Below are positions 9,358-36,539 of a DNA stretch of 64,000 nucleotides, piece by piece; position 1 is the first letter of the stretch, and each line of letters begins with the position of its first letter. The notes under the pieces were generated by a model. The model saw nothing but the letters and a program-made list of their open reading frames with translations. It was not told the origin of the DNA and did not search any database. The stretch covers positions 2,356,001 through 2,420,000 of the forward strand of contig NZ_CP023275.1 in the NCBI RefSeq assembly GCF_002309535.1, given 5' to 3'. This stretch comes from Sulfurospirillum diekertiae (GTDB lineage: Bacteria; Campylobacterota; Campylobacteria; Campylobacterales; Sulfurospirillaceae). A program made the position numbers and the translations under genes.

Positions 9358-11016
9358 ATGATAGATAAAACATCCATAGAGAATCTCAAACAACGTCTTG
9401 ATATTGTCGACGTCGTAGGCTCCTACTTAGAGCTGAAAAAAAATGGCGCTAACTATAAGTGTGTCTGCCCTTTTCACAACGACACCAGTCCTAGTCTTGT
9501 CGTGAGTCCTTCAAAGCAAATTTACCACTGTTTTGCCTGTGGCGCAGGTGGAGATAGTATCAAATTTGTGATGGAATACGAAAAGCTTTCTTACCCTGAA
9601 ACCATCGAAAAACTCGCCAATATGGTTAATTTTTCACTCTCCTATACCACAACAGATGGAATCAAAAAAGAAGATCGCAAACTGATGGAAACCTTGAATC
9701 TCTTCTACATCAAACAGCTTGATAAGACTCCTTTTGCCAAAGAGTATCTCATCAAACGAGGCATTTCCGAGGCCTCTGTTGAAAAATTTGAAATCGGCTA
9801 TGCACCTGCTTCCTTCGCCACGCTGGATTTTCTAAGCTCCCGTGGCTACGCGATGAGTGAAAGTATGGAATACGGTGTGGCAGGCATTGGTGAAAATAAT
9901 CAACCTTATGCTCGTTTTATTGAACGCGTCACCTTTCCCATCTATTCACCTAGTAACAGGCTTGTTGGCTTTGGCGGACGCACCCTTTCTAATCATCCCG
10001 CAAAGTATGTAAACTCACCCCAAACCAAACACTTTAATAAATCACAACTGCTGTATGGCTATCAACTCGCCAAAGAGGCTATTTACAAACAAAAAACCAT
10101 CATCATCACCGAAGGCTATTTGGACGTTATTATGCTGCATCAAGCTGGATTTACACATGCCGTGGCAACGCTTGGTACTGCCCTTACCAACGAGCATATT
10201 CCACTCATCACGAGGGGTGATCCTGAAGTAATCGTCGCGTATGATGGTGATGATGCAGGGATTAATGCGGCACTCAAAGCCTCTTTTTTACTGAGTGCTC
10301 ATGGTATCAAAGGTGGCGTGGTACTCTTTGGCAATGGTATGGACCCTGCTGACATGGTACAAAATGGTCTGATGGATGCCCTGAACCATCTTTTCCGCAC
10401 CCCTCAGCCCTTCATTGAGTTTGCATTAGAACGTATGGTGAAAAAATACAACCTCAAAGACCCTTTAGCCAAACAACAAGCACTCACCGAAGCAATGAGC
10501 TATCTTAAAACACTTCCACAAGCCGTTCAGGAGAGCTATACAGGGATGCTTTCTGAGAAATTGGGGCTTCATCACAATTTGGTGAAAATCCAAAGTCACA
10601 AACCCCAAAGACTTGATAAAAAAGAGCGTGCCTTTGAAGATATGCTAGAGCTGACCATCATCAAAACCATTTTGAGTGAGCCAAGTCTGATTGACACGGT
10701 ACTCGATACCATCGATAGTTCTATGTTCAAAACCCATCATGAAGAGTTCTCTTTACTTTTAGAAAATCAATTTGAACATCCAAAGCTGAGACGTATCATG
10801 TTGTGGGAAGATATTAAGGTGTACGATGAAAAATCACTCATCGCTTCCATGGTCGCATTTTTGTATCACTACTACAACGAAAAATTCCAAGAAATCAGAA
10901 TGGCAAAAGAGCTGAGCTACGATAAAAAACAGTTTTTGATCCGCAAAATTCAAGAAAAAATGATGAAATTAAAACAAGGTGAATTGGTTCCGTATGAAAG
11001 CATTAGTACTCTATAG
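9358..11016 (+). CDS. dnaG: DNA primase
   Basis: 552 residues. The CHC2 zinc finger is intact: Cys37, His40, Cys58, Cys61 with the expected spacing. The TOPRIM core follows (TEGYLDVIMLH, AYDGDDAGINA), then a C-terminal helicase-binding region. It makes RNA primers for replication. No Shine-Dalgarno sequence precedes the ATG, and the nearest -10 box places the transcript start at about the ATG itself, so translation may be leaderless. The 3' end overlaps the next gene. Confidence 0.95.
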   Translation: MIDKTSIENLKQRLDIVDVVGSYLELKKNGANYKCVCPFHNDTSPSLVVSPSKQIYHCFACGAGGDSIKFVMEYEKLSYPETIEKLANMVNFSLSYTTTDGIKKEDRKLMETLNLFYIKQLDKTPFAKEYLIKRGISEASVEKFEIGYAPASFATLDFLSSRGYAMSESMEYGVAGIGENNQPYARFIERVTFPIYSPSNRLVGFGGRTLSNHPAKYVNSPQTKHFNKSQLLYGYQLAKEAIYKQKTIIITEGYLDVIMLHQAGFTHAVATLGTALTNEHIPLITRGDPEVIVAYDGDDAGINAALKASFLLSAHGIKGGVVLFGNGMDPADMVQNGLMDALNHLFRTPQPFIEFALERMVKKYNLKDPLAKQQALTEAMSYLKTLPQAVQESYTGMLSEKLGLHHNLVKIQSHKPQRLDKKERAFEDMLELTIIKTILSEPSLIDTVLDTIDSSMFKTHHEEFSLLLENQFEHPKLRRIMLWEDIKVYDEKSLIASMVAFLYHYYNEKFQEIRMAKELSYDKKQFLIRKIQEKMMKLKQGELVPYESISTL

Positions 11017-11977
11017 TGGCGGGCTTGATAGCATGCTCGCAATGAAACTTTTAACAAATCAGGGCATTGAAGTGATTGCGCTGCATATCAACATTGGTTT
11101 TGGTGTCAAAGAAGACAACTACGATACCCTTAAAAGACGCGCAGCGATTGCAGGAGCGACGCTGGAAGTCATTGATGTTCGCGATGAATACCTTCAAAAA
11201 ATTCTCTTTAGTCCCAAATATGGCTACGGCAAACAATTCAACCCGTGCATTGACTGCCATGGGTTCATGTTTACAGTTGCCAAGGCACTCCTGCCTCGTT
11301 ACGGGGCTTCGTTTATTGCCACAGGCGAAGTTATTGGACAACGCCCTATGAGCCAAAATAAAGATGCTCTGAGGTTGGTCAAAAAAATCGCTAATGACAT
11401 TGATGAAGATTTGATTCTTCGTCCACTCTGTGCCCTCGTGATGGAAGAGACAAAGCCGGAACGTGAAGGGTGGGTCGATCGCAGTAAACTTTTAGGCTTT
11501 AATGGCAGAGGAAGAAATGCTCAACTTTCCCTTGCCAAAGAGTGGGGCTGGGAAGACTACCCTACACCTGCAGGGGGCTGTTTACTGACCGATGTTCAAT
11601 TTAGTATCCGCTTACGTGATTGTGTAACGCACGAAACGTTTGACAAAGAAGACATCGAAGTGCTTAAAAATGGCAGACATTTTAGATTGCCAGATGGCTC
11701 AAAACTCGTTGTGGGGCGTAACGAAAAAGAGAATGATATTATTGATAGTCTCCATAACCCTAAATTTAATCTTTTACATGTAAAAGAAGAGATGAATGCC
11801 CCTTCTTCCTTACTCTCAAAAAACGCTTCCAGTGCGGATGAAGCTCTAGCATGTCGTATTGTTTTAACTTTTACCAAAGCATTTCACGATCAAAATTATG
11901 CGCTTTGCATTGGCCAAAAACTTTTTCAATCATCACCGTTTAAAACAAAAGAAGATACCAAAAAATATCTTATATAG
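10994..11977 (+). CDS. PP-loop ATPase, tRNA thiouridylase-like
   Basis: 327 residues starting MKALVLYSGGLDSMLAMKLL, the PP-loop (SGGLDS) of the adenylating N-type ATPases used for tRNA thiolation (MnmA/ThiI relatives). Cys residues follow in FNPCIDCHGFMF and TPAGGCLLT. Proteins of this shape in the phylum are annotated as argininosuccinate-synthase-domain or tRNA sulfurtransferase-like; the exact substrate is not known to me. I chose the ATG at 10994 over a GTG at 10979 because the PP-loop strand begins right after it and an AAGGTGA site lies upstream. It overlaps dnaG by 23 bases. Confidence 0.75.
   Translation: MKALVLYSGGLDSMLAMKLLTNQGIEVIALHINIGFGVKEDNYDTLKRRAAIAGATLEVIDVRDEYLQKILFSPKYGYGKQFNPCIDCHGFMFTVAKALLPRYGASFIATGEVIGQRPMSQNKDALRLVKKIANDIDEDLILRPLCALVMEETKPEREGWVDRSKLLGFNGRGRNAQLSLAKEWGWEDYPTPAGGCLLTDVQFSIRLRDCVTHETFDKEDIEVLKNGRHFRLPDGSKLVVGRNEKENDIIDSLHNPKFNLLHVKEEMNAPSSLLSKNASSADEALACRIVLTFTKAFHDQNYALCIGQKLFQSSPFKTKEDTKKYLI
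11773..11784. repeat. Perfect TTTACATGTAAA palindrome inside the thiouridylase-like gene
   Basis: Part of a 14-base perfect palindrome, read as Leu-His-Val-Lys. The next core copy is 9.7 kb away. Confidence 0.85.
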
Positions 11978-12038
11978 TTTTTTAAAGATAATTTTTGTAC
12001 TATATTGCCTTATAGAATTACAATATGAGGATTATGAG

Positions 12039-12419
12039 ATGGGCTTATCAAACAAAATGATTTTTTTAGTCGTGGACGATTCAAAAATATCACGGAAATG
12101 GCTCATCGAGATGATTCCGAAGAAAATTGTAGAAAGTGCTGAAATTATCGAAGGATGTAATGGAGAAGAGGCCATTGAGCTGTATAAGCAGCACCAACCC
12201 GATATTGTTTTTTTAGATATTACAATGCCGGGAATAGATGGTTTTGAAGCGTTACAACATATCAAGGAGATCAACGCCGATGCACTTGTGGTCATGGTCT
12301 CAGCAGATCGCCAAAAAAGTACCAAAGAAAGAATTTTGAACTTAGGTGCTTCCGCCATTATTTCTAAACCGATTGATGAAGAAGAATTTCGCACAACATT
12401 ACTAAAGTTGGTATTTTAA
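12039..12419 (+). CDS. CheY-like single-domain response regulator
   Basis: 126 residues, one receiver domain: IFLVVDDSKISRKW (acidic pair), DIVFLDITMPGIDG (phosphoacceptor Asp), VMVSADRQ (Thr/Ser position) and SKPID (Lys). The upstream reading frame is open, but a TGAGG ribosome binding site places the start at 12039. It abuts the CheC gene (stop and start adjacent), so CheC is its likely phosphatase. Confidence 0.88.
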   Translation: MGLSNKMIFLVVDDSKISRKWLIEMIPKKIVESAEIIEGCNGEEAIELYKQHQPDIVFLDITMPGIDGFEALQHIKEINADALVVMVSADRQKSTKERILNLGASAIISKPIDEEEFRTTLLKLVF

Positions 12420-13025
12420 ATGACAAAATCGTCCTTTAATCCGCAACAAGAAGATATTTTAAAAGAACTCATCAACGTCTCTTTTGGACTTTCTGCCTCT
12501 TTGATTGGTGACATGTTGGATAACCGTGCTAAACTTCATATCCCTGAAATTTCTAGCATTGACATCCAATACTTAGATGATAAAATCATTGAAGTCTTGG
12601 ACAATGACTCTGAATTTTATCTCACAAAACAGCGCTTTTTAGGCTCTTTTAATGGTGAAGTTCTCTTTGTTTTCAATAACTATTCAGCCAAAGTATTTTG
12701 TAGCCTTTTACTCAAACAAGAGATCAGTGATGAAAACGATATTAAATCATCTATTATGGAACTTACTAACATTATTACATCTGCGTGCATTGGTAAATTC
12801 TGTGAAATTATTCATGGTGAAACCATCTTTAAAGTTCCATCCATTGAAAAACGCGACATCTCAGAAATGGACAAGTATGACAAGATCGAGGGGTATGACA
12901 ATGTTATTGTTATCAAAACAGCCTTGGATATTGAAAAAGAAAATATCTTAGGGCATATGTTTATCCTTCTTAACAACGAAATGTTAGAGCAACTAAAATG
13001 CACCATAGATAAGCTAGAACAATGA
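12420..13025 (+). CDS. cheC: CheC-type CheY-P phosphatase
   Basis: 201 residues with two copies of the CheC/FliY active-site pattern (D/S)-x3-E-x2-N-x22-P. The first is DILKELIN followed 22 residues later by Pro; the second is SSIMELTN followed 22 residues later by Pro. Both copies are complete, so both sites should be active. CheC removes phosphate from CheY and in Bacillus is stimulated by CheD. A CheD is encoded in the facing operon (17899-18375). It is packed between a CheY-like gene and a diguanylate cyclase (4-base overlap). Confidence 0.85.
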   Translation: MTKSSFNPQQEDILKELINVSFGLSASLIGDMLDNRAKLHIPEISSIDIQYLDDKIIEVLDNDSEFYLTKQRFLGSFNGEVLFVFNNYSAKVFCSLLLKQEISDENDIKSSIMELTNIITSACIGKFCEIIHGETIFKVPSIEKRDISEMDKYDKIEGYDNVIVIKTALDIEKENILGHMFILLNNEMLEQLKCTIDKLEQ

Positions 13026-14026
13026 TAAACTGCGAAAAAATAATTGACTCTATCAATGTGGGTATCTTGACGGTTGATACAGATCTCAACATCTACTACA
13101 TTAATAAGTGGTTTGCCGTTCACAATAATGTTGAAGCTGAGCATATTATAGGAAAAAATCTACTCTCGTTATTTGAATTAACTTCAGAGCGATTAAAATC
13201 GCTCAAACGTCACATCAAAGCGGCTTTGACACTGAACAGCCCCTCTTTTTTTACAGCAGATTCCAATGACTACCTTTTCCCCGTGAAAAACTCTATGACA
13301 ACAAAATCTATTTTTGAGTTTATGCAACAAGATGTTACCATCCTGCCCTACAACCTTGAAACAAAGCAAGTAACGATCCTAATTTATGATCAAACGGGAT
13401 TAATGGAAGAAAAATCACGCTGCCATAAAGAAAGTGAAGAATTGGCGAAAGCGGTAAAAATTGCCAATGCAACCATTCGAAAACTCGAAACCGCAAAAAG
13501 TAAACTTATTAAGCAAAAAGATATCATTTATAAACAAGCGCATTATGACCACTTAACCTCTTTGGCGAATCGTACACTGCTCAATCAAAGACTTCAACTT
13601 TTGGTGGAAAACAATCAATACAGTGGCAAAAAATTCGGAGTACTCTTCTTGGATCTGGATAATTTTAAAGAGATTAATGACTCAATGGGCCATGATGTTG
13701 GCGATATGATCCTCATTCATGTGGCAAAAACACTCCTCCTCACTACACGTAAATCAGATACGGTTGCACGTTTTGGAGGGGATGAATTTATTATTCTTAT
13801 TGATGAAATAGAAGAAATTAAAGCATTAGAACATATTGCTCAAAAACTGATTGATGCAATCCAGCAACCTATTAGAATACATCATTTAGATATTCATATT
13901 ACCATGAGCATAGGCATTAGTCTCTTCCCAGACTCAGGAAAAGACTTTAATCAACTGATTAAAAATGCTGACCTAGCACTCTATCTGGCTAAAGAATCAG
14001 GAAGAAATAACTTTAAAATATTTTAA
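13022..14026 (+). CDS. PAS-GGDEF diguanylate cyclase
   Basis: 334 residues. An N-terminal PAS-like domain (GILTVDTDLNIYYINKWF) is followed by a helical linker (about 135-165) and a GGDEF domain with the intact RFGGDEF signature. An RKSD inhibitory site (RxxD) lies five residues before it, so product inhibition is likely. It should make cyclic di-GMP in the cytoplasm. There are no membrane segments. The ATG overlaps the cheC stop by 4 bases, joining c-di-GMP synthesis to a CheY/CheC module. Confidence 0.9.
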   Translation: MINCEKIIDSINVGILTVDTDLNIYYINKWFAVHNNVEAEHIIGKNLLSLFELTSERLKSLKRHIKAALTLNSPSFFTADSNDYLFPVKNSMTTKSIFEFMQQDVTILPYNLETKQVTILIYDQTGLMEEKSRCHKESEELAKAVKIANATIRKLETAKSKLIKQKDIIYKQAHYDHLTSLANRTLLNQRLQLLVENNQYSGKKFGVLFLDLDNFKEINDSMGHDVGDMILIHVAKTLLLTTRKSDTVARFGGDEFIILIDEIEEIKALEHIAQKLIDAIQQPIRIHHLDIHITMSIGISLFPDSGKDFNQLIKNADLALYLAKESGRNNFKIF

Positions 14027-14060
14027 TATAGATAAATTGAGCTTGTTAAATTTAAAGTTA

Positions 14061-15359
14061 TTAAAAAAATTCTATTTCATCATCTCCACTTATATCTGCA
14101 CTTTTCTCTTCAAAAATAGCTTCGATCTGGATACACGAAGAGAGCAATGACGCATCAAGATAGTGGATATCGCGAGCAACTCTAGTAATAAAAACATTTT
14201 CTCTCCACGAGGAAAGATCATGCAAAAGGTTGAGAAGCATTGAAGATAGTTTTTTAACTTTTGTCTTTTCAAATTGATCTTCTGTCAAAGTTGCTAGAAA
14301 ATTGATGAGCGTTTGCACTGAAAAACCTAGATGAACAAAATCAACTAACTCGGCTAAAAGATCTGCATACTCTTGAAAATTCTCACAAATAATCGTAGCG
14401 GTTCGCTTATTAGGATCACGCTCAAAATCTAAAATAGCTTTATCTATCTCATCATTAATGATTTCAAGTCCATCAATTTTACCCATAAAAGAGATAACAT
14501 TGTTGTCAATATATTCTGTAGCAGACAACACATTATCATGCGTTTTTTCCAATACTTTTTTTGCCTCATCACTGATTTCGATGGTCGCTTTTTGAACTTT
14601 AAGAGGAGTCTTCTTTTCCATGTCAAGTTGAAAGGAGAGCATCTCTTTCGTTAAAATATATTTAGCATGAGCAAAATGTTTGAGTAAAATATTTTTAATA
14701 ATGCTATTTTTGATAGCGCCTTTGTGTAGTAACATCATATAGACTTTCTCAGGGCTTTCTTCCATGACAATGGTAAAAGACTGCTCATTTTTGAGCAACC
14801 ACAATCCAAAACCATAGATTAATCGCACACAATCACTCAAATCTAGAATATTCTTTTCACCATTGAGCCAATAGTCCCAAAATTCCCCCAAAGATTCTTC
14901 TTTTTCAATCCTAAAAGTCGTATTCCGACTATAAACCTTGGTATTGAAAGGATTTAAGACATTGGAAGCTGTTTTTGTTTCTTTATTCCGATGGCGAATA
15001 ATACGAATATAGTGCTTTATACGAGTGCAAAAAAGCTCGGCATCAATTGGTTTAGTCAGATAATCCTCTGCGCCTAAAGAGAGCATTTTATTTTTGGATG
15101 CCTGATCGTCAAGCGCACTCAAGGCAATAATCATACATTTTTTTTGTACTTGTCTAATAAGTTTTGTAGCCTCAAAACCATCCATATTAGGCATCATGAT
15201 ATCCATAAAAATAAGATCAAAGTTTTGTTTAACACACATCTCTACAGCAATTTGCCCATCTTCCGCTTCATATACTTCAACATTCTCTACCTCCTCAAGT
15301 AAAAGATTGAGAGTCAGTCTGTTGTTATCATTATCATCAACAATAAGCACTTTGAGCAT
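14061..15359 (-). CDS. Response regulator with long uncharacterised C-terminal region
   Basis: 432 residues. Residues 1-120 are a typical receiver: VLIVDDNDNNR, LIFMDIMMPNMDG, ALSALDDQ and TKPID. The remaining 300 residues contain no output domain I recognise; they look mostly helical, with a stretch (EISDEAKKVLEKTHDNVLSATEYIDN) that could be coiled coil. The acidic C-terminus SGDDEIEFF resembles the tails of the MCP and the degenerate kinase of the same operon. It is last in the chemotaxis operon and starts 1 base after the PAS kinase gene ends. Confidence 0.8.
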   Translation of the reverse strand: MLKVLIVDDNDNNRLTLNLLLEEVENVEVYEAEDGQIAVEMCVKQNFDLIFMDIMMPNMDGFEATKLIRQVQKKCMIIALSALDDQASKNKMLSLGAEDYLTKPIDAELFCTRIKHYIRIIRHRNKETKTASNVLNPFNTKVYSRNTTFRIEKEESLGEFWDYWLNGEKNILDLSDCVRLIYGFGLWLLKNEQSFTIVMEESPEKVYMMLLHKGAIKNSIIKNILLKHFAHAKYILTKEMLSFQLDMEKKTPLKVQKATIEISDEAKKVLEKTHDNVLSATEYIDNNVISFMGKIDGLEIINDEIDKAILDFERDPNKRTATIICENFQEYADLLAELVDFVHLGFSVQTLINFLATLTEDQFEKTKVKKLSSMLLNLLHDLSSWRENVFITRVARDIHYLDASLLSSCIQIEAIFEEKSADISGDDEIEFF

Positions 15360-28525: not shown

Positions 28526-28604
28526 TAATGAACTAAAAAAACTTATTTATCTTTTTCACAATGACGCTTCTGTACAATAACCTTTACTTATTTTGGAGAC
28601 TCAC

Positions 28605-29351
28605 ATGCTTTCATCCCTCGCTATCAGTTTTGCTGAAGCAAACCACTATTTCAATACCGAACTTTCTTCTCATTTCCGAGCCATTGACGATGGAAATCTA
28701 ATGCCTATGTTGCTTATTTTTCTGCTCTCTTTTGGTTATGGTGTGGTACATGCCATTGGTCCAGGTCATGGTAAAGCACTTGTTGCGGGTTATCTTTTAG
28801 CCAACCCCACCAAACGCTCTCACGTGTTTCAAATAGGCTTTTTAATCGCTATCGTTCATGCCCTTTCTGCCCTTGTGGTGACACTGGCGGCAACGTATCT
28901 GATTCAAATCAGTGCGATGAAATTTTTTCGTCAAGTCAATCCACCTCTGTTTCAAATTTCAGGTGCACTGATTGTCCTCATGGGATGCTGGTTACTTTAC
29001 GATGTTTGGCGCTCACGCACAATGACAAAAGAGAGTGTTCGCCCACAAAAAAGCCGTTTTGGGGTCGTTGTATTAGCCGGTGTCGTTCCCTGCCCTGGCG
29101 TTATTACCCTTTGCTTTTTTGCCATTACGTTAGGGCATATTACTATAGGAATGATCGCTGCCATCTTTATGAGCCTTGGTATGGGACTTACCATTTCGCT
29201 TGCAGGTTTATTGGTCAATGTCATGCAAAAGACGAAACCTGTTATCACTCAGCCACGTTGGTTCTGGGCATTGCGCCTTTTGGGTGTTCTCATCGTTATA
29301 GGACTGGGACTATTGTTTTTGCTCAACCCAGTTTCAACCAGAGCTTTTTAA
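28605..29351 (+). CDS. NicO-family metal transporter
   Basis: 248 residues with about six membrane helices. The key motif VVHAIGPGHGKALVAGYLL and a second VVPCPGVITLCFF are signatures of the NicO/RcnA family, which moves nickel or cobalt. The His-rich loop of RcnA is missing. I chose the ATG at 28605 because a GGAG site lies 7 bases upstream; an in-frame TTG at 28593 has no such support. First gene of a three-gene cassette. Confidence 0.82.
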   Translation: MLSSLAISFAEANHYFNTELSSHFRAIDDGNLMPMLLIFLLSFGYGVVHAIGPGHGKALVAGYLLANPTKRSHVFQIGFLIAIVHALSALVVTLAATYLIQISAMKFFRQVNPPLFQISGALIVLMGCWLLYDVWRSRTMTKESVRPQKSRFGVVVLAGVVPCPGVITLCFFAITLGHITIGMIAAIFMSLGMGLTISLAGLLVNVMQKTKPVITQPRWFWALRLLGVLIVIGLGLLFLLNPVSTRAF

Positions 29352-29354
29352 AGC

Positions 29355-30788
29355 ATGCTTCGAAAGTTTCTCTTAGCCTTTTTGATGCTTGCCCTTCCTT
29401 ACAACCTTTTTGCCTGTGCATTGTGTGCTTTATACACCCCATCGGCTACGGTAATTATCACCATGAACGGAACGCCTTCAAAAGTTGAAACCATTACCTT
29501 TGAATGGACATTTACACAAGATTTCATCAATACTCTCTTAGCACGTTACGATGAAAATCACAATAACAAACTCGATCCCAAAGAGCTAGAGCGTATCAAA
29601 ATTATTTTGGAAAATTACATCGCAAAGCGCCATTATCTGACAACCATCGAATACCTCAGTGTAGCGCGACCTAATCAAGACGATGTGAAGAAAATACCTT
29701 TACATGTAAAAACAAAAAATCTCTTTTTAGACGGTGACACGCTCATTTTTCGCTTTACCACCGAGGTCAATCAAGCAGTGACAGCAGGCGATGAACTCTC
29801 CTTTGTGACCGAAGACAAGGAAGAGTATTTTAAATTTTTAGTGCACAATGTGACCTATACGATAGAAAAACCCTTTACTATGGAATTCAATATTTTTAAC
29901 CATATTGCTTTTACCAAAATTACCACGGGCATGCCAGCGGAGGCAAATATCACTGCGCCCATCATGACGGCTAAAGAAGCGTCAATACCTCCTGTGGTAG
30001 AGCAACCGCTTCCAACATCTATGTCATGGCTTCAATCACGATTAACCCATATGCAGCAGAATATTCAAGAAGCCATCACCAATCTCACAGAGAAAGGAAC
30101 ACTTTTAGCCTATGCCCTTTTCTTAGGCACATCTTTTTTATACGGCCTGCTTCATGCCGCGGGTCCAGGACACGGTAAAGCGTTGGTCAGCTCTTATCTT
30201 TTTGCCTCAGATCATCGCTATACCAAAGCATTGAGCATGGCTGCACTCATTGGCATTGTGCATACGTTTGCCGCTTTTTTGCTCACACTCGTCATTTACG
30301 GACTTTTTGATCTCTTCTTTAATGCTTTTTTTACCAACGTGACGTACTATGCGACGAAACTCTCAGCGCTGATGATTATTGCCATTGCGGGTTATTTAGG
30401 GTGGCAAAAAATCAAAGCGTTTCAGGCATTTAAACAGACTCCTAAAATCGTCTCATTTTCCGAACACCCTTTTACATGTAAATGCTCTGCCTGTTCACCA
30501 AAGTCGCAAAGTACCGATTGGGGCGTAGTTTTAAGCGCTGGAGTCATTCCGTGCCCGGGAACGATTACGATCTTTATTTTTGCACTCAATACGGGAGCGT
30601 ACCTTCTAGGTTTTTTAGCCGCTCTTAGCATGAGTTTAGGGATGAGTAGCGTCATCGCTATAACAGCGATTGCTTCGGTCTTTACCAAAAATCGTTTTCA
30701 AACCAAAAGCCCAAAAATTCTCATTTACAGTGAGAGCATCAGTCTTAGTATTATGCTGATTCTTGGCTTTATTTTATTGATTGCTTAA
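29355..30788 (+). CDS. DUF1007-NicO fusion transporter
   Basis: 477 residues. A signal peptide (residues 1-20) is followed by a periplasmic DUF1007 domain that includes the EF-hand-like loop YDENHNNKLDPKEL. Then comes a NicO membrane domain with LLHAAGPGHGKALVSSYLF and VIPCPGTITIFIF. It is a fusion of the two families encoded separately by its neighbours, so it may be the centre of the transporter. It starts 3 bases after the first NicO gene. Two perfect palindrome copies lie inside. Confidence 0.8.
   Translation: MLRKFLLAFLMLALPYNLFACALCALYTPSATVIITMNGTPSKVETITFEWTFTQDFINTLLARYDENHNNKLDPKELERIKIILENYIAKRHYLTTIEYLSVARPNQDDVKKIPLHVKTKNLFLDGDTLIFRFTTEVNQAVTAGDELSFVTEDKEEYFKFLVHNVTYTIEKPFTMEFNIFNHIAFTKITTGMPAEANITAPIMTAKEASIPPVVEQPLPTSMSWLQSRLTHMQQNIQEAITNLTEKGTLLAYALFLGTSFLYGLLHAAGPGHGKALVSSYLFASDHRYTKALSMAALIGIVHTFAAFLLTLVIYGLFDLFFNAFFTNVTYYATKLSALMIIAIAGYLGWQKIKAFQAFKQTPKIVSFSEHPFTCKCSACSPKSQSTDWGVVLSAGVIPCPGTITIFIFALNTGAYLLGFLAALSMSLGMSSVIAITAIASVFTKNRFQTKSPKILIYSESISLSIMLILGFILLIA
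29699..29710. repeat. Perfect TTTACATGTAAA palindrome inside the DUF1007-NicO gene
   Basis: Read as Leu-His-Val-Lys. Confidence 0.85.
30471..30482. repeat. Perfect TTTACATGTAAA palindrome inside the DUF1007-NicO gene
   Basis: Read in another frame as Phe-Thr-Cys-Lys, so the DNA sequence, not the peptide, is conserved. Confidence 0.85.
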
Positions 30789-30797
30789 GGAGTGGTT

Positions 30798-31313
30798 GTG
30801 TTTACTCGCTTCATTTTTTTCATCTGTTGTCTTAACACTTTTTTAGTGGCACATCCGCATATTTTTATTGATACCCAAGTGCAAGTTTTGCCTGAAAAGA
30901 TCATTATCGTATGGAGCTTTGATGAGATGACTTCTGCTATGCTCATGGACGATTACGACAAAAATAAAAACAAAAAGCTCGACCCTGACGAAGTTGCTTT
31001 TATGGAAAAAGATCACTTTAGAACGTTAGAGCCTTACAGTTATTTTATCCATATGTCCGATGGAAAAGATGAGTTTGACCTTAAACGTATCATCGAATTC
31101 ACAGCCTCTTTTGAAAACAAAAAACTCATCTACGCCTTCGCCATTCCCAAACCAAAACTGAAAAAATACGAACTGCGTTTTTACGATGCGGAGATGTATG
31201 TAGCGCTCATTTTAAAAAATGAGTGGCTTACATGTAAAGAACCCGTTAAGTGTAAAATTGAAGGGTATGATGCCGATTTTTATTATGCCTATAAGGTGAT
31301 GGTTCAAGAATAA
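30798..31313 (+). CDS. Periplasmic DUF1007 family protein
   Basis: 171 residues with a signal peptide and the mature start AHPHIFIDTQVQVL typical of DUF1007. It contains the EF-hand-like loop DYDKNKNKKLDPDEV. DUF1007 proteins accompany NicO transporters and are thought to be their periplasmic metal-handling partners. A GTG at 30798 is placed 5 bases after TAAGGAG; another in-frame GTG at 30792 overlaps that site and is less likely. Confidence 0.8.
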   Translation: MFTRFIFFICCLNTFLVAHPHIFIDTQVQVLPEKIIIVWSFDEMTSAMLMDDYDKNKNKKLDPDEVAFMEKDHFRTLEPYSYFIHMSDGKDEFDLKRIIEFTASFENKKLIYAFAIPKPKLKKYELRFYDAEMYVALILKNEWLTCKEPVKCKIEGYDADFYYAYKVMVQE

Positions 31314-31361: not shown

Positions 31362-31988
31362 ATGCCACTCGATCTTTGGACATTTTTAATTGCTATTACC
31401 TTGCTTACAATGACCCCAGGGGCTGATACGATGATCGTTATTCGCAATACCGTACGTGGTGGAGCAAAAGATGGGCTTGTTTCAAGTTTGGGAATTTGTT
31501 CAGGTCTTTTTGTGCATGCAACACTTTCAGCGGTAGGTATTTCAGCGATTTTACTCTATTCAGCAACCGCATTTACTATTTTGAAAAGTGTGGGAGCGCT
31601 CTACTTGCTTTGGCTGGGATTTAACTCATTCAAATCATTTTGGAATGCAAAAGGCGTTCATCAAAAGCACATTGCTCCAAAACCTTTTCGTTTTTTGAGC
31701 TCTTTACAAGAGGGTTTTTTATCCAATGTTCTCAATCCCAAAGCGATCATTTTTTATATGGCATTTTTACCACAATTTATTTCACATGAGAGCTCCGTCC
31801 TTGGGCAATCACTCTTTCTCGCATTTTTACACTTTGTTGTAGGAACGATCTGGCAGGCGATTTTGGTCTACACCATTGTCTCTGCCAATGGCTTTATCAC
31901 GAAAAAAAGTGTCCGTCAAAGCTTAGATGCCATCTCAGGAACGGTTATGATAGCGCTTGGTATTACGCTCTTTTTGGAAAAACGCTAA
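31362..31988 (+). CDS. LysE/RhtB-family amino acid exporter
   Basis: 208 residues, about six membrane helices, with TMTPGADTMIVIRNTVRGG and LSNVLNPKAIIFYMAFLPQF, the two family blocks. Exports an amino acid or derivative; substrate unknown. AAAGGAG precedes the ATG. It converges on the epimerase gene with a 4-base overlap. A paralogue lies at 36540-37163. Confidence 0.88.
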   Translation: MPLDLWTFLIAITLLTMTPGADTMIVIRNTVRGGAKDGLVSSLGICSGLFVHATLSAVGISAILLYSATAFTILKSVGALYLLWLGFNSFKSFWNAKGVHQKHIAPKPFRFLSSLQEGFLSNVLNPKAIIFYMAFLPQFISHESSVLGQSLFLAFLHFVVGTIWQAILVYTIVSANGFITKKSVRQSLDAISGTVMIALGITLFLEKR

Positions 31989-32803
31989 ACCAAAATCTTT
32001 CGAAGCGAGCTCTCTAAATCCGGATATTGAAACACAAATCCTTTTTCAAGTAAACTCTTAGGGTAAACCTCTTTGCTATCCAGTAAAACCGTTGAACCTT
32101 CTCCAAAAAGCAGTTTGATCACAAACGAGGGTACGGGCAAAAAAGTGGGGCGATGCAACACTTTACCCAAGGTCTTCGTAAAATCGTAATTACTCAGTGG
32201 TTGTGGTGCAGTGGCATTATAAATACCCTCGCATTGGTGCTCTAACACAAAAGCGTAAATGGCAACAAGATCATCGAGATCAATCCAGCTGGTCATCATC
32301 CATCCATCACCAATGATGCCTCCAAGCCCCAGTTTAAAGGCGGGTAACATTTTGGCAAGTGCACCACCATCCGCACCCAAGACGACACCAAAACGTAAAA
32401 TAGTGGTGCGTTTCGTACATTTTAAAGCTTCCGCTTCCCAATCCTGCGCCAGTTTTCCTAAAAAATCATCCCCAAGTAAGCGCATGCTCTCATCACACGG
32501 CACATTATTCGGGTAAATACCTACCGCAGAGGTGGAGATAAAATGCTCTATTTTGCTTTGATTGATTGCTTCAACCAACTTTTTGGTTGTCTCAATGCGA
32601 CTTGCATAAAGCACTTTTTTATACGCCTCATTCCATCTTGCAACAATGGGCGCACCTGCGAGATTAAAAACTGCGTCTACTCCTTCAAGTTTTTGTTGGA
32701 TCGCTTTTACATCATCTTTGCGTTCAATGACTACAAAATCAGGAAATCTCTTTTTCAGTGCATTGGCAACAAAACCGCTCGCTCCGCTGATGGCTACTTT
32801 CAT
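31985..32803 (-). CDS. TIGR01777/SDR39U1-type epimerase (YfcH-like)
   Basis: 272 residues of an extended short-chain dehydrogenase: the NAD(P) loop is VAISGASGFVANAL, and VDAVFNLAGAPI, STSAVGIYP and ATAPQPLSNYDF are the family blocks. Activity is not known for the family. It is the last gene of the minus-strand operon after the NosL-like gene, with only 1 base between them, but may be unrelated in function. Confidence 0.82.
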   Translation of the reverse strand: MKVAISGASGFVANALKKRFPDFVVIERKDDVKAIQQKLEGVDAVFNLAGAPIVARWNEAYKKVLYASRIETTKKLVEAINQSKIEHFISTSAVGIYPNNVPCDESMRLLGDDFLGKLAQDWEAEALKCTKRTTILRFGVVLGADGGALAKMLPAFKLGLGGIIGDGWMMTSWIDLDDLVAIYAFVLEHQCEGIYNATAPQPLSNYDFTKTLGKVLHRPTFLPVPSFVIKLLFGEGSTVLLDSKEVYPKSLLEKGFVFQYPDLESSLRKILV

Positions 32804-32804
32804 T

Positions 32805-33314
32805 TTAGTGTCCTTGTAAGTGTTGACGTATTTTAGGATCGCTCATATTTTCACCCCTGAGCATGCGAAGACGCATCTCATTAAAGTCTATTATGCCTTC
32901 TTTTTTCTGTTGTTCATACGCCCCAAAGCCATAATGCATAGGGGTTTCATCATTGATCGCATAAGAGGCTTTGAACGCATCGATATAACGATGGGTGTCA
33001 TTACTGAACACCCACATCGTAACGCTTTGAGGCTCTATCTTTTGCTCTTTAAGCCATAAAATAGCACACCCAACATCATCAAAAAAGTGTGTTTTAGAAT
33101 CTCCCGTGACAATTTGTGCCGTGTGCTTTTTACCCACAAGATACATGTGACACTCAGGACATTGAATGGTATTGTCCTTAAATTCTAAGGCGACTTTGGC
33201 ACTATTGGCTTTATCGGTTGGCAATTGATGCTTTACATGTAAAAACCAAAAGAGTCCACCAAGGGCAAGAAGCGGAAAGATAATCAGCACACCCATAAAA
33301 ATAGTTTTCTTCAC
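32805..33314 (-). CDS. NosL-like metal-binding protein
   Basis: 169 residues. An N-terminal membrane helix is followed by IQCPECHMYLVGKKHTAQI and FFDDVGCAILWL, which match the Cys/Met copper site and the FDD...C block of NosL. NosL delivers copper to nitrous oxide reductase, but no nosZ is visible here. The longer open frame upstream overlaps the previous gene. A GTG at 33314 overlaps that gene's stop (GTGA), a standard coupling, so I start there. Confidence 0.75.
   Translation of the reverse strand: MKKTIFMGVLIIFPLLALGGLFWFLHVKHQLPTDKANSAKVALEFKDNTIQCPECHMYLVGKKHTAQIVTGDSKTHFFDDVGCAILWLKEQKIEPQSVTMWVFSNDTHRYIDAFKASYAINDETPMHYGFGAYEQQKKEGIIDFNEMRLRMLRGENMSDPKIRQHLQGH
33232..33243. repeat. 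Perfect TTTACATGTAAA palindrome inside the NosL-like gene
   Basis: Read as Leu-His-Val-Lys near the membrane anchor. Confidence 0.85.
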
Positions 33315-34273
33315 AACCAAACTCCATTCCGTATAAAATAGATGACAGGGTAACTTGTTATGATCAAGAGATAAAGTGCACACAGTATTAAAGAGGCTCT
33401 CATAAAACGCGGTTGTGCCGTGTGTGACACCAGCGCTAAAATGCCTCCACCAATGCCATAAAACGTGCCTGCAAATAAAAGTGTGTAAAGCGCATACCCC
33501 ACATAATAATAATCCCTTTGCAATAAGCAAAACGGACAACGGTGTGTGGGAAGTTCATACACATACGGGCTAAAAAAGACAATTAACGCAATGATTGAAA
33601 AAATTAGAAACATACCATTGGCAAAAATCATTAAAGGCGTATGTTTCAACCCATACGCAAGCACCATCAGTCCAAAGAAGCCATAGAAAAGCCAAACCCA
33701 TAATGAAGCATCTACTGCAAATAACAAAGAGATGTACGAACTGCTTGATGCAGAAAAAAGTGTCCCGCAGCAACTAACGATCTTACTGATATTCAGCCCT
33801 GCAAAGAATGCTATCTCCAATCCGATCTCTGCAAAGAGGGGAACTGAGAAAATGACAAACAGAATAAATTTGAGCTTGGTGTAAGGGAGTTTCTCATCAT
33901 GAATATCAGCAGCGTGAAGCAATAACCAAAAGCCAAACAGATACAGATTTAACAGTTTAAACAGTGTAAAATACAACCCAAAGTCCACCGAATTGACCAC
34001 GCCACTCGCACACATAGCACCGGTGATGATCGTAGAGAGCTTATCGCACGTGTAGATAAAAAAAGCAAACAAAGGCAGTTTGAGCATAAAGATGTATTTG
34101 ATCATGGTCGAAACCAAAGCGCTCTGCTTGGATAGGGTGTATTGAAGGGAGGTAGTTGCTTGATTGTCCCACTTGAGTGCTATGCGAAAGCCAATCACCA
34201 AGGCAATTACGCCAAAGAAGAGAAAAATAGCATCCAAAATAAGCAGTGAGATAATCTCAGGAGTTAAACTCAT
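33311..34273 (-). CDS. Polytopic membrane protein with DsbB-like CxxC motif
   Basis: 320 residues with about eight membrane helices. I do not recognise a named family. HRCPFCLLQRDYYY near residue 245 resembles the CPLCxxQR redox motif of DsbB, and a CCG pair lies near residue 170, so it may handle thiols or metal. It overlaps the ABC ATPase gene and the NosL-like gene by 4 bases each, so it is probably made together with them as part of one membrane complex. Confidence 0.65.
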   Translation of the reverse strand: MSLTPEIISLLILDAIFLFFGVIALVIGFRIALKWDNQATTSLQYTLSKQSALVSTMIKYIFMLKLPLFAFFIYTCDKLSTIITGAMCASGVVNSVDFGLYFTLFKLLNLYLFGFWLLLHAADIHDEKLPYTKLKFILFVIFSVPLFAEIGLEIAFFAGLNISKIVSCCGTLFSASSSSYISLLFAVDASLWVWLFYGFFGLMVLAYGLKHTPLMIFANGMFLIFSIIALIVFFSPYVYELPTHRCPFCLLQRDYYYVGYALYTLLFAGTFYGIGGGILALVSHTAQPRFMRASLILCALYLLIITSYPVIYFIRNGVWL

Positions 34274-34938
34274 ACGATAAGCTCGCCGTTATGTATTTCA
34301 ATGATTTGATCCACAAACCCCAAATCAAAAAAGAGCGGATCATGGGTTGCGATGAGGAGGGTCACTCCTTTTTGTTTGAGTTTCTCAAGCGTGGCTATCA
34401 GTTCATGTGAAAGCTTTTCATCCAGATTGGCGGTGGGCTCATCGGCTAAGATGATTAAGGGATCGTTGATTAAAGAGCGTGCGATGGCGACACGTTGTTG
34501 CTCACCTCCTGAGAGGCGATTGATTCGCATCTTTGCTTTATGCGCTATGCCACACTGCTCCATCACTGCTTTGGCTTTGCTCTCGAGTACATGCAAAGAA
34601 AGGTTCTCAGGAATCAAAGGTGTCATGATATTTTCAAGAGCACTCAGATGGGCTATGAGGTGATACTTTTGAAAGATAAATCCTATTTTCTGCCGTCGAA
34701 GAGCGGCACTAAAATGCTCAGGGAGTTTGGAAATCTCCTTCCCATCCACACGCACTTCACCCTGAGAGGGTTGCATCAGCCCTGCAATTAAAGAGAGTAA
34801 GGTACTCTTGCCACTACCACTGGATCCCTTGAGTACCACACACTCCCCACGCTTTACATGTAAAGAGATATTGGTAAGGGCATGAATGCTCTCATCGCCT
34901 TGTATAAAGCTTTTACTCACCTCTTTAATCCAAATCAT
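34270..34938 (-). CDS. ABC transporter ATP-binding protein (LolD/MacB type)
   Basis: 222 residues. Walker A GSSGSGKSTLLSL, signature LSGGEQQRVAIARSL, Walker B LIILADEPTANLD and the H-loop ATHD are all present. The length and QQR signature place it in the LolD/MacB/FtsE class that works with FtsX-like permeases. It overlaps the permease gene by 4 bases. Confidence 0.93.
   Translation of the reverse strand: MIWIKEVSKSFIQGDESIHALTNISLHVKRGECVVLKGSSGSGKSTLLSLIAGLMQPSQGEVRVDGKEISKLPEHFSAALRRQKIGFIFQKYHLIAHLSALENIMTPLIPENLSLHVLESKAKAVMEQCGIAHKAKMRINRLSGGEQQRVAIARSLINDPLIILADEPTANLDEKLSHELIATLEKLKQKGVTLLIATHDPLFFDLGFVDQIIEIHNGELIV
34853..34864. repeat. Perfect TTTACATGTAAA palindrome inside the ABC ATPase gene
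   Basis: Read as Leu-His-Val-Lys just before the Walker A strand. Confidence 0.85.
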
Positions 34939-36122
34939 CGCATCACCTCGTCAGCATCTAAGCTTGAAGCTCGCCATGCGGGAATCAGGGTAGCAGCGAT
35001 GTAAATAGGAACACTTAGTAGAAATAGTAAAAAGGGCATTGCAAAATCGATATGAAAAGGTAATATAAAAGCAGGTTTAAGCTCGGAGTAACCCATAAAA
35101 ACATTACGCAAAAGAGGTGCTTGCATGCCATAGACGTAAAAAAGCGAAAACGCGATGCCGACTAAAAAAGCACTCATAGCAAGGATAAAGCTCTCATAAA
35201 ACTTCTCTTGTAAAATATCATCACTGCTCCAGCCAATCGCTTTGAGTATGCCGATTTCCTTTTTCTCTTCCGAACTTAGACCACTGGTTTTATCGTAGAT
35301 GATGATAAAAAAGGCAAAAGCACAGACACTAAAAAGAGAGAGAAAGAAACCACTTTTATAATCAAAAATATTCTGATAACTGACTCTAATATCATCTTGG
35401 GTAATAGCACGCAGATCAGGGAAACGCGTGGTGATTTTCTGCACGATGGTAGGGATCTCTTTCACATTGGCCACTTTCACTACAATATCGGTCGCTTTGC
35501 TCTCATCCATCCCAAAAATGGCGTACGCGAGCTTTTTAGGCACAAGGATAAGATCATTGGATTCAAGCGCTAGGTCTGAATTAAAAACACCTGCGATGGA
35601 AACCTTTTGCCATTTGCCCTCACTGGTGACAAAGTTGAAAAAGTCGGTGTAGTAATTCTCACTCAAGACTTTTTTAACCCCAACACCGATGATCATTGCT
35701 TGTTGGCTCTCCAACAGTTTTAGATCGAAATGCTGTGTGAGTTTCGACAGTATTTGGGAGTATTGCTCTTCATATGCATCAACACCAACCACCGAGAAAT
35801 TCACACCCGCGGGCTTGAAGTAGTAGTAGCCCCATACACGAGGCGTTACAGAACTAATCCCTTCAATATCCAAAAGGGCATCCACACAACTGATGGGCAC
35901 ATCACTCTGTTTCCCCGCAACAAAACGTTGCAAGGTAATCTGCGGCAAGGTTTTAAGGGTTGTATTCAGTTCCAGTTTAATGGCATCGGCGATCATCAAC
36001 ACCGAAGAGAGCAAGAAGATGAGCAGACTTAAGATCAAAAAGATGAAAAAGCTTTTACTCGCACGACGAAGGAGAGAGCGAATGGCGTAATCGAGCAGTA
36101 AGAAATTAGGTTTAAAAAACAC
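34935..36122 (-). CDS. FtsX/MacB-like ABC permease
   Basis: 395 residues. One membrane helix near residues 25-45, a large periplasmic domain (about 50-260) and three C-terminal helices with the GILKAIGWSSDDIL coupling segment give the FtsX/MacB topology. Such permeases act on lipoproteins, peptides or envelope proteins rather than pumping small ions. It overlaps the small upstream gene by 11 bases and the ATPase gene by 4. Confidence 0.88.
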   Translation of the reverse strand: MFFKPNFLLLDYAIRSLLRRASKSFFIFLILSLLIFLLSSVLMIADAIKLELNTTLKTLPQITLQRFVAGKQSDVPISCVDALLDIEGISSVTPRVWGYYYFKPAGVNFSVVGVDAYEEQYSQILSKLTQHFDLKLLESQQAMIIGVGVKKVLSENYYTDFFNFVTSEGKWQKVSIAGVFNSDLALESNDLILVPKKLAYAIFGMDESKATDIVVKVANVKEIPTIVQKITTRFPDLRAITQDDIRVSYQNIFDYKSGFFLSLFSVCAFAFFIIIYDKTSGLSSEEKKEIGILKAIGWSSDDILQEKFYESFILAMSAFLVGIAFSLFYVYGMQAPLLRNVFMGYSELKPAFILPFHIDFAMPFLLFLLSVPIYIAATLIPAWRASSLDADEVMR

Positions 36123-36423
36123 GGTCTATCCTTGAAGGATTTGCATTGGGTGCATAGTGATAGACAAAGGTGGATGGAAAATACTCTAAGAGTTCAGGGG
36201 ATTCATTGAAGTAGGAGAAAACATCACTCAGACTTCGGTGACGCACATAGTGTGCTTCACTCACTAAAGCTAAATCAGGTAGTCCTACCAATGCGATTAA
36301 TTCTTCTTTACATGTAATCTTTTGGCAAGTGAGTGCATGCGTCTTGGAGAAGTAAAATGCTTGTGCCATTATCGTGACGCAAACCGTGAAAAATAGTGTT
36401 AAAAACGTGACCCGCGCAACCAT
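36112..36423 (-). CDS. Small exported protein of the ABC/NosL operon
   Basis: 103 residues with an N-terminal hydrophobic helix (VTFLTLFFTVCVTIMAQAF) that is either a signal peptide or an anchor, and two Cys residues in LTCQKITCKEE. Not recognised. It is first in the operon and overlaps the permease start by 11 bases. A palindrome copy (36307-36318) encodes the ITCKEE stretch. Confidence 0.6.
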   Translation of the reverse strand: MVARVTFLTLFFTVCVTIMAQAFYFSKTHALTCQKITCKEELIALVGLPDLALVSEAHYVRHRSLSDVFSYFNESPELLEYFPSTFVYHYAPNANPSRIDRVF

Positions 36424-36539
36424 CGCATCTCCTCTAACCTAAGCGAAGATTGTACCACATGAACGCTCTTTTATCAATACCCTCTAAGCCATTTTGGATT
36501 ACAATACCCTCTTTAAAAAGCTTCTGTTAAGGACGTTTT

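Follow-up and report, generated by a model that had tools for sequence, protein, structure and literature searches.

A five-gene cassette with an FtsX-type ABC transporter and a NosL homologue in Sulfurospirillum diekertiae, a candidate Cu(I) assembly system of Campylobacterota

We analyzed a 64,000-nucleotide stretch of Sulfurospirillum diekertiae (contig NZ_CP023275.1, positions 2,356,001 to 2,420,000; hereafter the window), taken from a genome assembled as a single contig of 2,814,086 bases. Five minus-strand genes located at 36423..32805 of the window, with consecutive overlaps of 11, 4, 4 and 4 bases, form a cassette encoding a small protein (P1), an FtsX-like permease, a LolD-type ATPase, an eight-helix membrane protein (TM8) and a NosL-family protein (NL5) (Table 1). 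We consider it somewhat probable that the cassette specifies a Type VII ATP-binding cassette (ABC) complex that would work with NL5 and TM8 on Cu(I) for exported respiratory copper enzymes. This proposal is based on the identity of NL5 as a NosL protein, on the presence of the cassette in the nos and mcc clusters and on the occurrence of NosL with TM8 in genomes with neither enzyme; on five Cys and one His that are invariant in TM8, with DsbD_2 and CusABC-like genes as neighbours; and on low omega values and a conserved promoter at the stand-alone loci. The original prediction of five tightly overlapping genes was confirmed, the order being kept in other genomes, while its span from 31985 was too wide and took in a TIGR01777/YfcH epimerase gene (31985-32803) that lies outside the cassette and is without a counterpart in the nos-operon copy described below.

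Table 1. Features of the stand-alone cassette, in positions of the window
Feature	Position	Strand	Basis
Predicted promoter, stand-alone cassette	36449..36477	-	TTGATA-17-TACAAT, TG before -10; 10/12 consensus positions
P1, small protein with predicted signal anchor	36112..36423	-	ORF (open reading frame), hydropathy, family alignment
FtsX-like permease, MacB/LolCE type	34935..36122	-	PF02687 E=5e-11; four hydrophobic segments
ATPase, LolD/FtsE/MacB type	34270..34938	-	Walker A GSSGSGKST and signature LSGGE, both intact
TM8, predicted eight-helix membrane protein with CPFCLLQR	33311..34273	-	49-member alignment, AF2 (AlphaFold2) model
NL5, NosL-family protein	32805..33314	-	43% identity to nosL product, motifs, fold
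DNA homology block with nos-operon copy	32798..36402	-	95.9%, gap-free; ends almost exactly at cassette borders

NL5 is a NosL homologue by motif, sequence and fold, as had been proposed, and is predicted to bind Cu(I). The protein starts at a GTG codon (33314), the TTG start at 33539 given by the ORF finder being spurious, and aligns with the product of the genome's own nosL at E=6e-28. It carries the motifs CPECHM (CXXCXM) and TPMHYGFGA; C56, M58 and M127, the last within TPMxYGFGA, were invariant in 42 sequences. NosL is a Cu(I) chaperone delivering for CuZ, with a CXM motif (CXXCXM in clade II) and a strictly conserved second Met (PMC6530538). The AF2 model of NL5 (pLDDT 94.8) had its best PDB matches in NosL 7og7 (Foldseek E=2.4e-4, probability 1.00, TMt 0.63) and in NosDFYL complexes. 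The score of NL5 against Pfam PF05573 was 13.9 bits, below the gathering cut-off of 24; we attribute this to a limit of the Pfam model, because the genome's nosL product (L006), with which NL5 aligns so well, is also under the cut-off. The gene most often found upstream of the cassette encodes a NosL protein with two such domains (NOSL2x; L038 8390-9256, L039 7530-8660, L099 11693-12883), and in several members the linker between the domains resembles a cytochrome c domain without the haem motif.

TM8 is, by its sequence, a new membrane protein family, with no Pfam family and no PDB match by profile search or fold search. C88 (GAMC), C168-C169, H244, C246 and C249 (PTHxCPFC) were invariant in 49 of 49 diverse members, and an AF2 model with pLDDT 89 places the cysteines in loops 2, 4 and 6 of an eight-helix bundle, all on the same side. 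A slight excess of K/R in the odd loops, together with the link to NosL, weakly suggests that the Cys loops face the periplasm. TM8 had been described as an eight-helix protein with a DsbB motif. The eight helices and CPFCLLQR remain, but kinship with DsbB was rejected (hhalign probability 0.7% over 21 columns, Pfam DsbB absent), and the likeness is one of motif only. TM8 resembles the DsbB and VKOR thiol oxidases in having a CXXC followed by Q(R/K) ahead of a helix, and differs from them in its eight helices and additional invariant Cys, with no fold match. A weak match to VKOR (E=0.002, below cut-off) appeared in 2 of the 49 members, while hhalign with a single VKOR sequence was negative and the PDB fold search returned no VKOR match.

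The permease and ATPase are assigned by sequence to the Type VII class, yet they score below the cut-offs of every named member (LolCE, LolD, FtsE and MacB). PF02687 is above its cut-off and MacB_PCD below it; the predicted permease topology consists of a first transmembrane helix, a periplasmic domain of ~210 amino acids (aa) and three further helices, as expected for this class. The class assignment of the original prediction therefore stood, but LolCDE proper was rejected, since the ATPase reached 211 bits against TIGR02211 (E=1.5e-62, cut-off 308) and the permease 52 bits against the NCBIfam LolCE equivalog (cut-off 362). Like LolCDE, MacB, FtsEX and YbbAP-TesA (PMC12646458), the cassette combines a four-helix FtsX-type permease bearing a periplasmic domain with a LolD/FtsE-type ATPase, in systems whose function is set by partner proteins; its own partners, a NosL chaperone and TM8, are found with none of the four E. 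coli Type VII systems. P1, with a single N-terminal hydrophobic segment, no Pfam or NCBIfam match and the signature GLPDLAxSTEAxYIRHRSLSD...FPSTFxY, is by its alignment a new small family, predicted to be anchored and without a conserved Cys. The cysteines that had been named as a feature of this exported protein vary within the family.

A Lol-like sorting role, in which copper would enter only through the cargo, is an unlikely alternative. Within this ABC class the best known system is LolCDE (PMC8333309), and it is to LolCE and LolD that the permease and ATPase come nearest; NL5 has a lipobox in many other genera, and the genome's nosL product resembles a lipoprotein. However, the NL5 of the window has an N-terminal helix anchor and no lipobox Cys, and is thus not a Lol cargo; the scores fall far below the LolD and LolCE cut-offs, and sorting leaves no part for the five invariant Cys of TM8.

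We collected 144 distinct TM8 loci, 102 of which had enough flank for gene-order percentages. Directly upstream of TM8, LolD was present at 96% and FtsX at 95% of the 102 loci, and a match to the P1 hidden Markov model was found upstream of FtsX at 74%. NL5/NosL was downstream at 64%, two-domain NosL upstream at 55% and any NosL-family gene within 8 kb at 90%. The order is therefore not due to chance, and the expected co-occurrence of the gene set in other genomes was observed. The context was a nos operon at 37%, an mcc cluster at 4% and neither at 59%, and a DsbD_2 gene followed NL5 in ~10% of loci. On a quick TM8 tree with some long branches, 22 context changes were counted, ~15 of them forced by well-supported branches and nearly all between nos and stand-alone, a call that depends on the flank available. 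The mcc-type TM8 forms a separate clade of single origin (support 98), and none was found in a search of plasmids. The cassette lies in an mcc cluster at five loci and at L227, which belongs with L228 to a genome (G359) that we take to be Wolinella succinogenes. At L227 the order is NosL2x-FtsX-LolD-TM8-NL5 (FtsX to NL5 at 10636-13881), with a thioredoxin-like gene with CPYC after NL5 (13897-14289); by count, the five genes would correspond to MccH to MccL of the published W. succinogenes cluster. L228 (8122-10921) holds a second FtsX-LolD-TM8 core with a two-component system alongside and no adjacent NosL gene.

The neighbours of the cassette at nosZ-less loci vary by family, with no common enzyme neighbour seen among them. 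At one such locus (L073 1-5029) the cassette follows a CusABC-type-looking RND (resistance-nodulation-division) efflux operon and a two-component system, and two-component genes adjoin it at some other loci. These neighbours and the MacB-type permease are what favour copper tolerance or efflux, with the ABC complex clearing Cu(I) from the periplasm and the NosL domains scavenging it, as MacAB does for drugs. We regard this as unlikely too: the cassette has no MacA-like adaptor or TolC gene, and a location within operons for NosZ and MccA is more in line with the assembly of enzymes. At four loci of one family (L097, L098, L099, L117), NOSL2x and the cassette come immediately after a two-component system and ExbB-ExbD-TonB-like genes, which suggests outer-membrane copper uptake; no receptor gene was seen at these four loci.

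TM8 was present in 147 of 299 Campylobacterales genomes, NosZ in 122 and MccA in 36; the counts treat genomes as independent though they are related. TM8 and NosZ were correlated (93 genomes with both, odds ratio 7.3). The idea that homologues always accompany nosZ was contradicted by 54 of the 147 TM8 genomes, which lack NosZ, 43 of them lacking MccA as well. The 43 genomes fall into 13 family codes, 34 are at least 90% complete and five are single contigs (G008, G096, G209, G235, G291). Incomplete assembly or recent loss accounts for some nosZ-less cases: nosHFLY remain in G105 and nosY in G271, and G078, which has MccA, retains nosY without nosZ. NosL was found in 145 of the 147 TM8 genomes. 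Where both NosZ and MccA are missing, it occurred in 41 of 43 genomes with TM8 compared to 6 of 115 without it, and this pattern extends over 13 families. From a scan of 84,980 species 534 relatives were obtained, the best 80 of which were apparently all Campylobacterota (one record is labelled only 'Proteobacteria' and two only 'bacterium'); in a phylum-wide draw TM8 occurred in 106 of 298 genomes, with two copies in G359. The cbb3 oxidase was considered as a client and set aside, CcoN being present in 255 of the 299 genomes, many without TM8, so that the test was uninformative. Diverged MccA homologues (49-53%) were noted in eight TM8-less genomes (G060, G072, G085, G144, G166, G188, G199, G262); these may have no need for the cassette or may not be copper enzymes.

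The same counts bear on thiol-redox or haem maturation of multihaem and haem-copper cytochromes, with the NosL proteins as mere neighbours, which we consider improbable. MccA is an octahaem cytochrome, and the NosZ of Campylobacterota carries a c-haem (PMC4794192); the CPxC motif and the DsbD_2 neighbours would fit, as would the presence in the mcc cluster of CcsA1, a gene of the haem lyase type. Nevertheless, the NosL link persists in genomes without NosZ and MccA, TM8 has only one invariant His, and many CcoN-containing genomes are without TM8.

Several results weigh against Cu(I) assembly as the role of the cassette. NosZ is present and TM8 absent in 29 genomes, and the nos clusters of W. 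succinogenes, S. arsenophilum and S. Am-N are without the insertion (PMC4794192); the cassette is therefore not generally needed for NosZ. At four Arcobacter-type loci (L072, L080, L086, L088) FtsX-LolD-TM8 has no NosL gene adjacent, and no client enzyme was identified in the nosZ-less genomes. The NL5 of the mcc-type copies in Sulfurospirillum lacks CXM, and in those copies Cu binding may rest with the two-domain NosL protein.

The original prediction held that nosZ, nosD and nosY were missing here, which for nosZ is true of the window but not of the genome. No nosZ lies in the 64-kb window; elsewhere in the genome, nosZ (G000:C1:958732) is followed by nosBDGC1C2HFLY in a complete nos operon, and a second copy of the cassette (L037) is located between nosL and nosY of that operon, which also overturns the separation of the cassette from nos. 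Homology between the two copies ends at the cassette borders; all five genes were thus transferred or converted together. Identity between the window copy and the nos copy is 98.3% in one further genome and 99.1% in another, while between species the window copy mostly shows only 75-88% identity; the higher identity within genomes therefore points either to gene conversion or to duplication that was recent and happened repeatedly. The pair of copies in G277 and G139 is old, at 67% identity. The third copy in the genome (L038), with a TM8 36% identical, closes the mcc cluster of MccA, listed as a haem-copper enzyme in PMC7558416. Ahead of it are MccA, a peptidyl-prolyl isomerase, NrfC/D-like proteins, CcsA1 and the two-domain NosL, as named from sequence reading and gene order. 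In another genome of the species, an IS21-like transposase gene (L041 1-1107) stands in place of MccA/MccB and cuts into MccC; nosZ is also absent there, yet both cassettes are intact.

The stand-alone copy is under purifying selection. Omega against orthologues was ~0.05-0.14 for FtsX, LolD, TM8 and NL5 in most comparisons, near that of the flanking genes, and remained low in nosZ-less genomes (L049, L051); it was slightly higher against L040, of the same species, at low divergence. The predicted promoter lies ~26 bases before the first ATG. All 12 of the 12 stand-alone orthologues share its two hexamers and the TG without change, their spacers being otherwise diverged, whereas none of the five nos-operon copies inspected is preceded by it. 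The DUF1731 gene following the window cassette is also where the nos operon stops at L056 and L057, and this site has thus been used by nos operons and the cassette alike. That finding, with L050, where nosY-NL156 is retained after the cassette and nosZ is absent, would fit a decaying, functionless nos-operon remnant, which is very improbable given the low omega, the private conserved promoter and the five genes intact at nearly all stand-alone Sulfurospirillum loci examined.

What stands of the proposed metal delivery complex is a conserved unit with a NosL protein, placed in the nos and mcc clusters of two copper enzymes; we infer the delivery itself, and with it the physical complex, Cu(I) as cargo, the direction of transfer, the redox role of TM8 and the identity of a third client. 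Type VII ABC systems transmit force and not substrate (PMC12646458). FtsX-LolD would likewise pump no substrate; force from ATP hydrolysis would be relayed to the periplasm, where it would drive conformational steps in TM8 and NL5 by which Cu(I) is handed over or set free. The Cys of TM8 would bind or reduce Cu(I) and possibly keep thiol ligands reduced, and Cu(I) would be inserted into exported respiratory copper enzymes, the client being set by the operon. The cassette would thereby be a second copper-assembly ABC machine beside NosDFY, with NosZ, MccA and at least one more client.

NosDFY-NosL (PDB 7znq, 7osg) is similar in joining an ABC transporter and a NosL chaperone in one operon linked to NosZ, and NL5 matches the NosL chain of its complexes in fold. 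Identity with NosDFY was rejected, however, because the cassette permease is of the FtsX/MacB type, not NosY, and NosD is not in the cassette; TM8 and P1 have no counterpart in NosDFY-NosL. Unlike NosDFY-NosL, the cassette also occurs with MccA and with neither enzyme, and both machines coexist in this genome. NosDFY-NosL without NosZ has been discussed in Parageobacillus (PMC13068155).

The genes themselves have been seen before, in nos and mcc clusters. Ross et al. (2016; PMC4794192) drew the nos insertion of S. cavolei as unnamed genes, five of the same kind in the same place; the available part of that paper names only the ABC permease and ATPase, and gives no function, mcc link or stand-alone copies. 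The mcc cluster of W. succinogenes was published by Kern et al. (2011), as cited in PMC3765806. In the literature searched, which takes in few subscription journals, we found no paper that treats the genes as a single system, gives the distribution of stand-alone copies or deals with TM8.

More tentatively, and with rather less confidence than in the role proposed above, the cassette may serve Campylobacterota as a general Type VII ABC machine for Cu(I) assembly that differs from NosDFY. The probably periplasmic TM8 Cys would receive or reduce Cu(I), which would then pass through NosL chaperones to several unrelated cuproenzymes. Such a module would be recruited into the operon of each enzyme, with 15 or more well-supported changes of context counted on the TM8 tree.

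Other genes near the cassette were also recorded. Upstream of a LysE gene beside the cassette, the window carries two NicO-type nickel/cobalt transporter genes, one with a fused DUF1007-like domain, and a DUF1007 gene (28593-31313), in a position kept in nearly all Sulfurospirillum loci. In three families (L085 11039-12932, L068, L106), a 421-aa multi-helix protein without a Pfam match, a 110-aa protein and a DUF59-like protein are encoded downstream of the cassette.

Whether the greenhouse gas N2O is removed by a microbe depends on how N2O reductase is supplied with copper, and to our knowledge only NosDFY-NosL has been studied in depth for this delivery. If the proposed role is true, NosL chaperones would have clients besides NosZ, a new function would be added to the Type VII ABC class, and TM8 would define a membrane protein family with a clear cysteine signature. 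W. succinogenes appears to carry the mcc copy, highlighting a tractable organism for the system.

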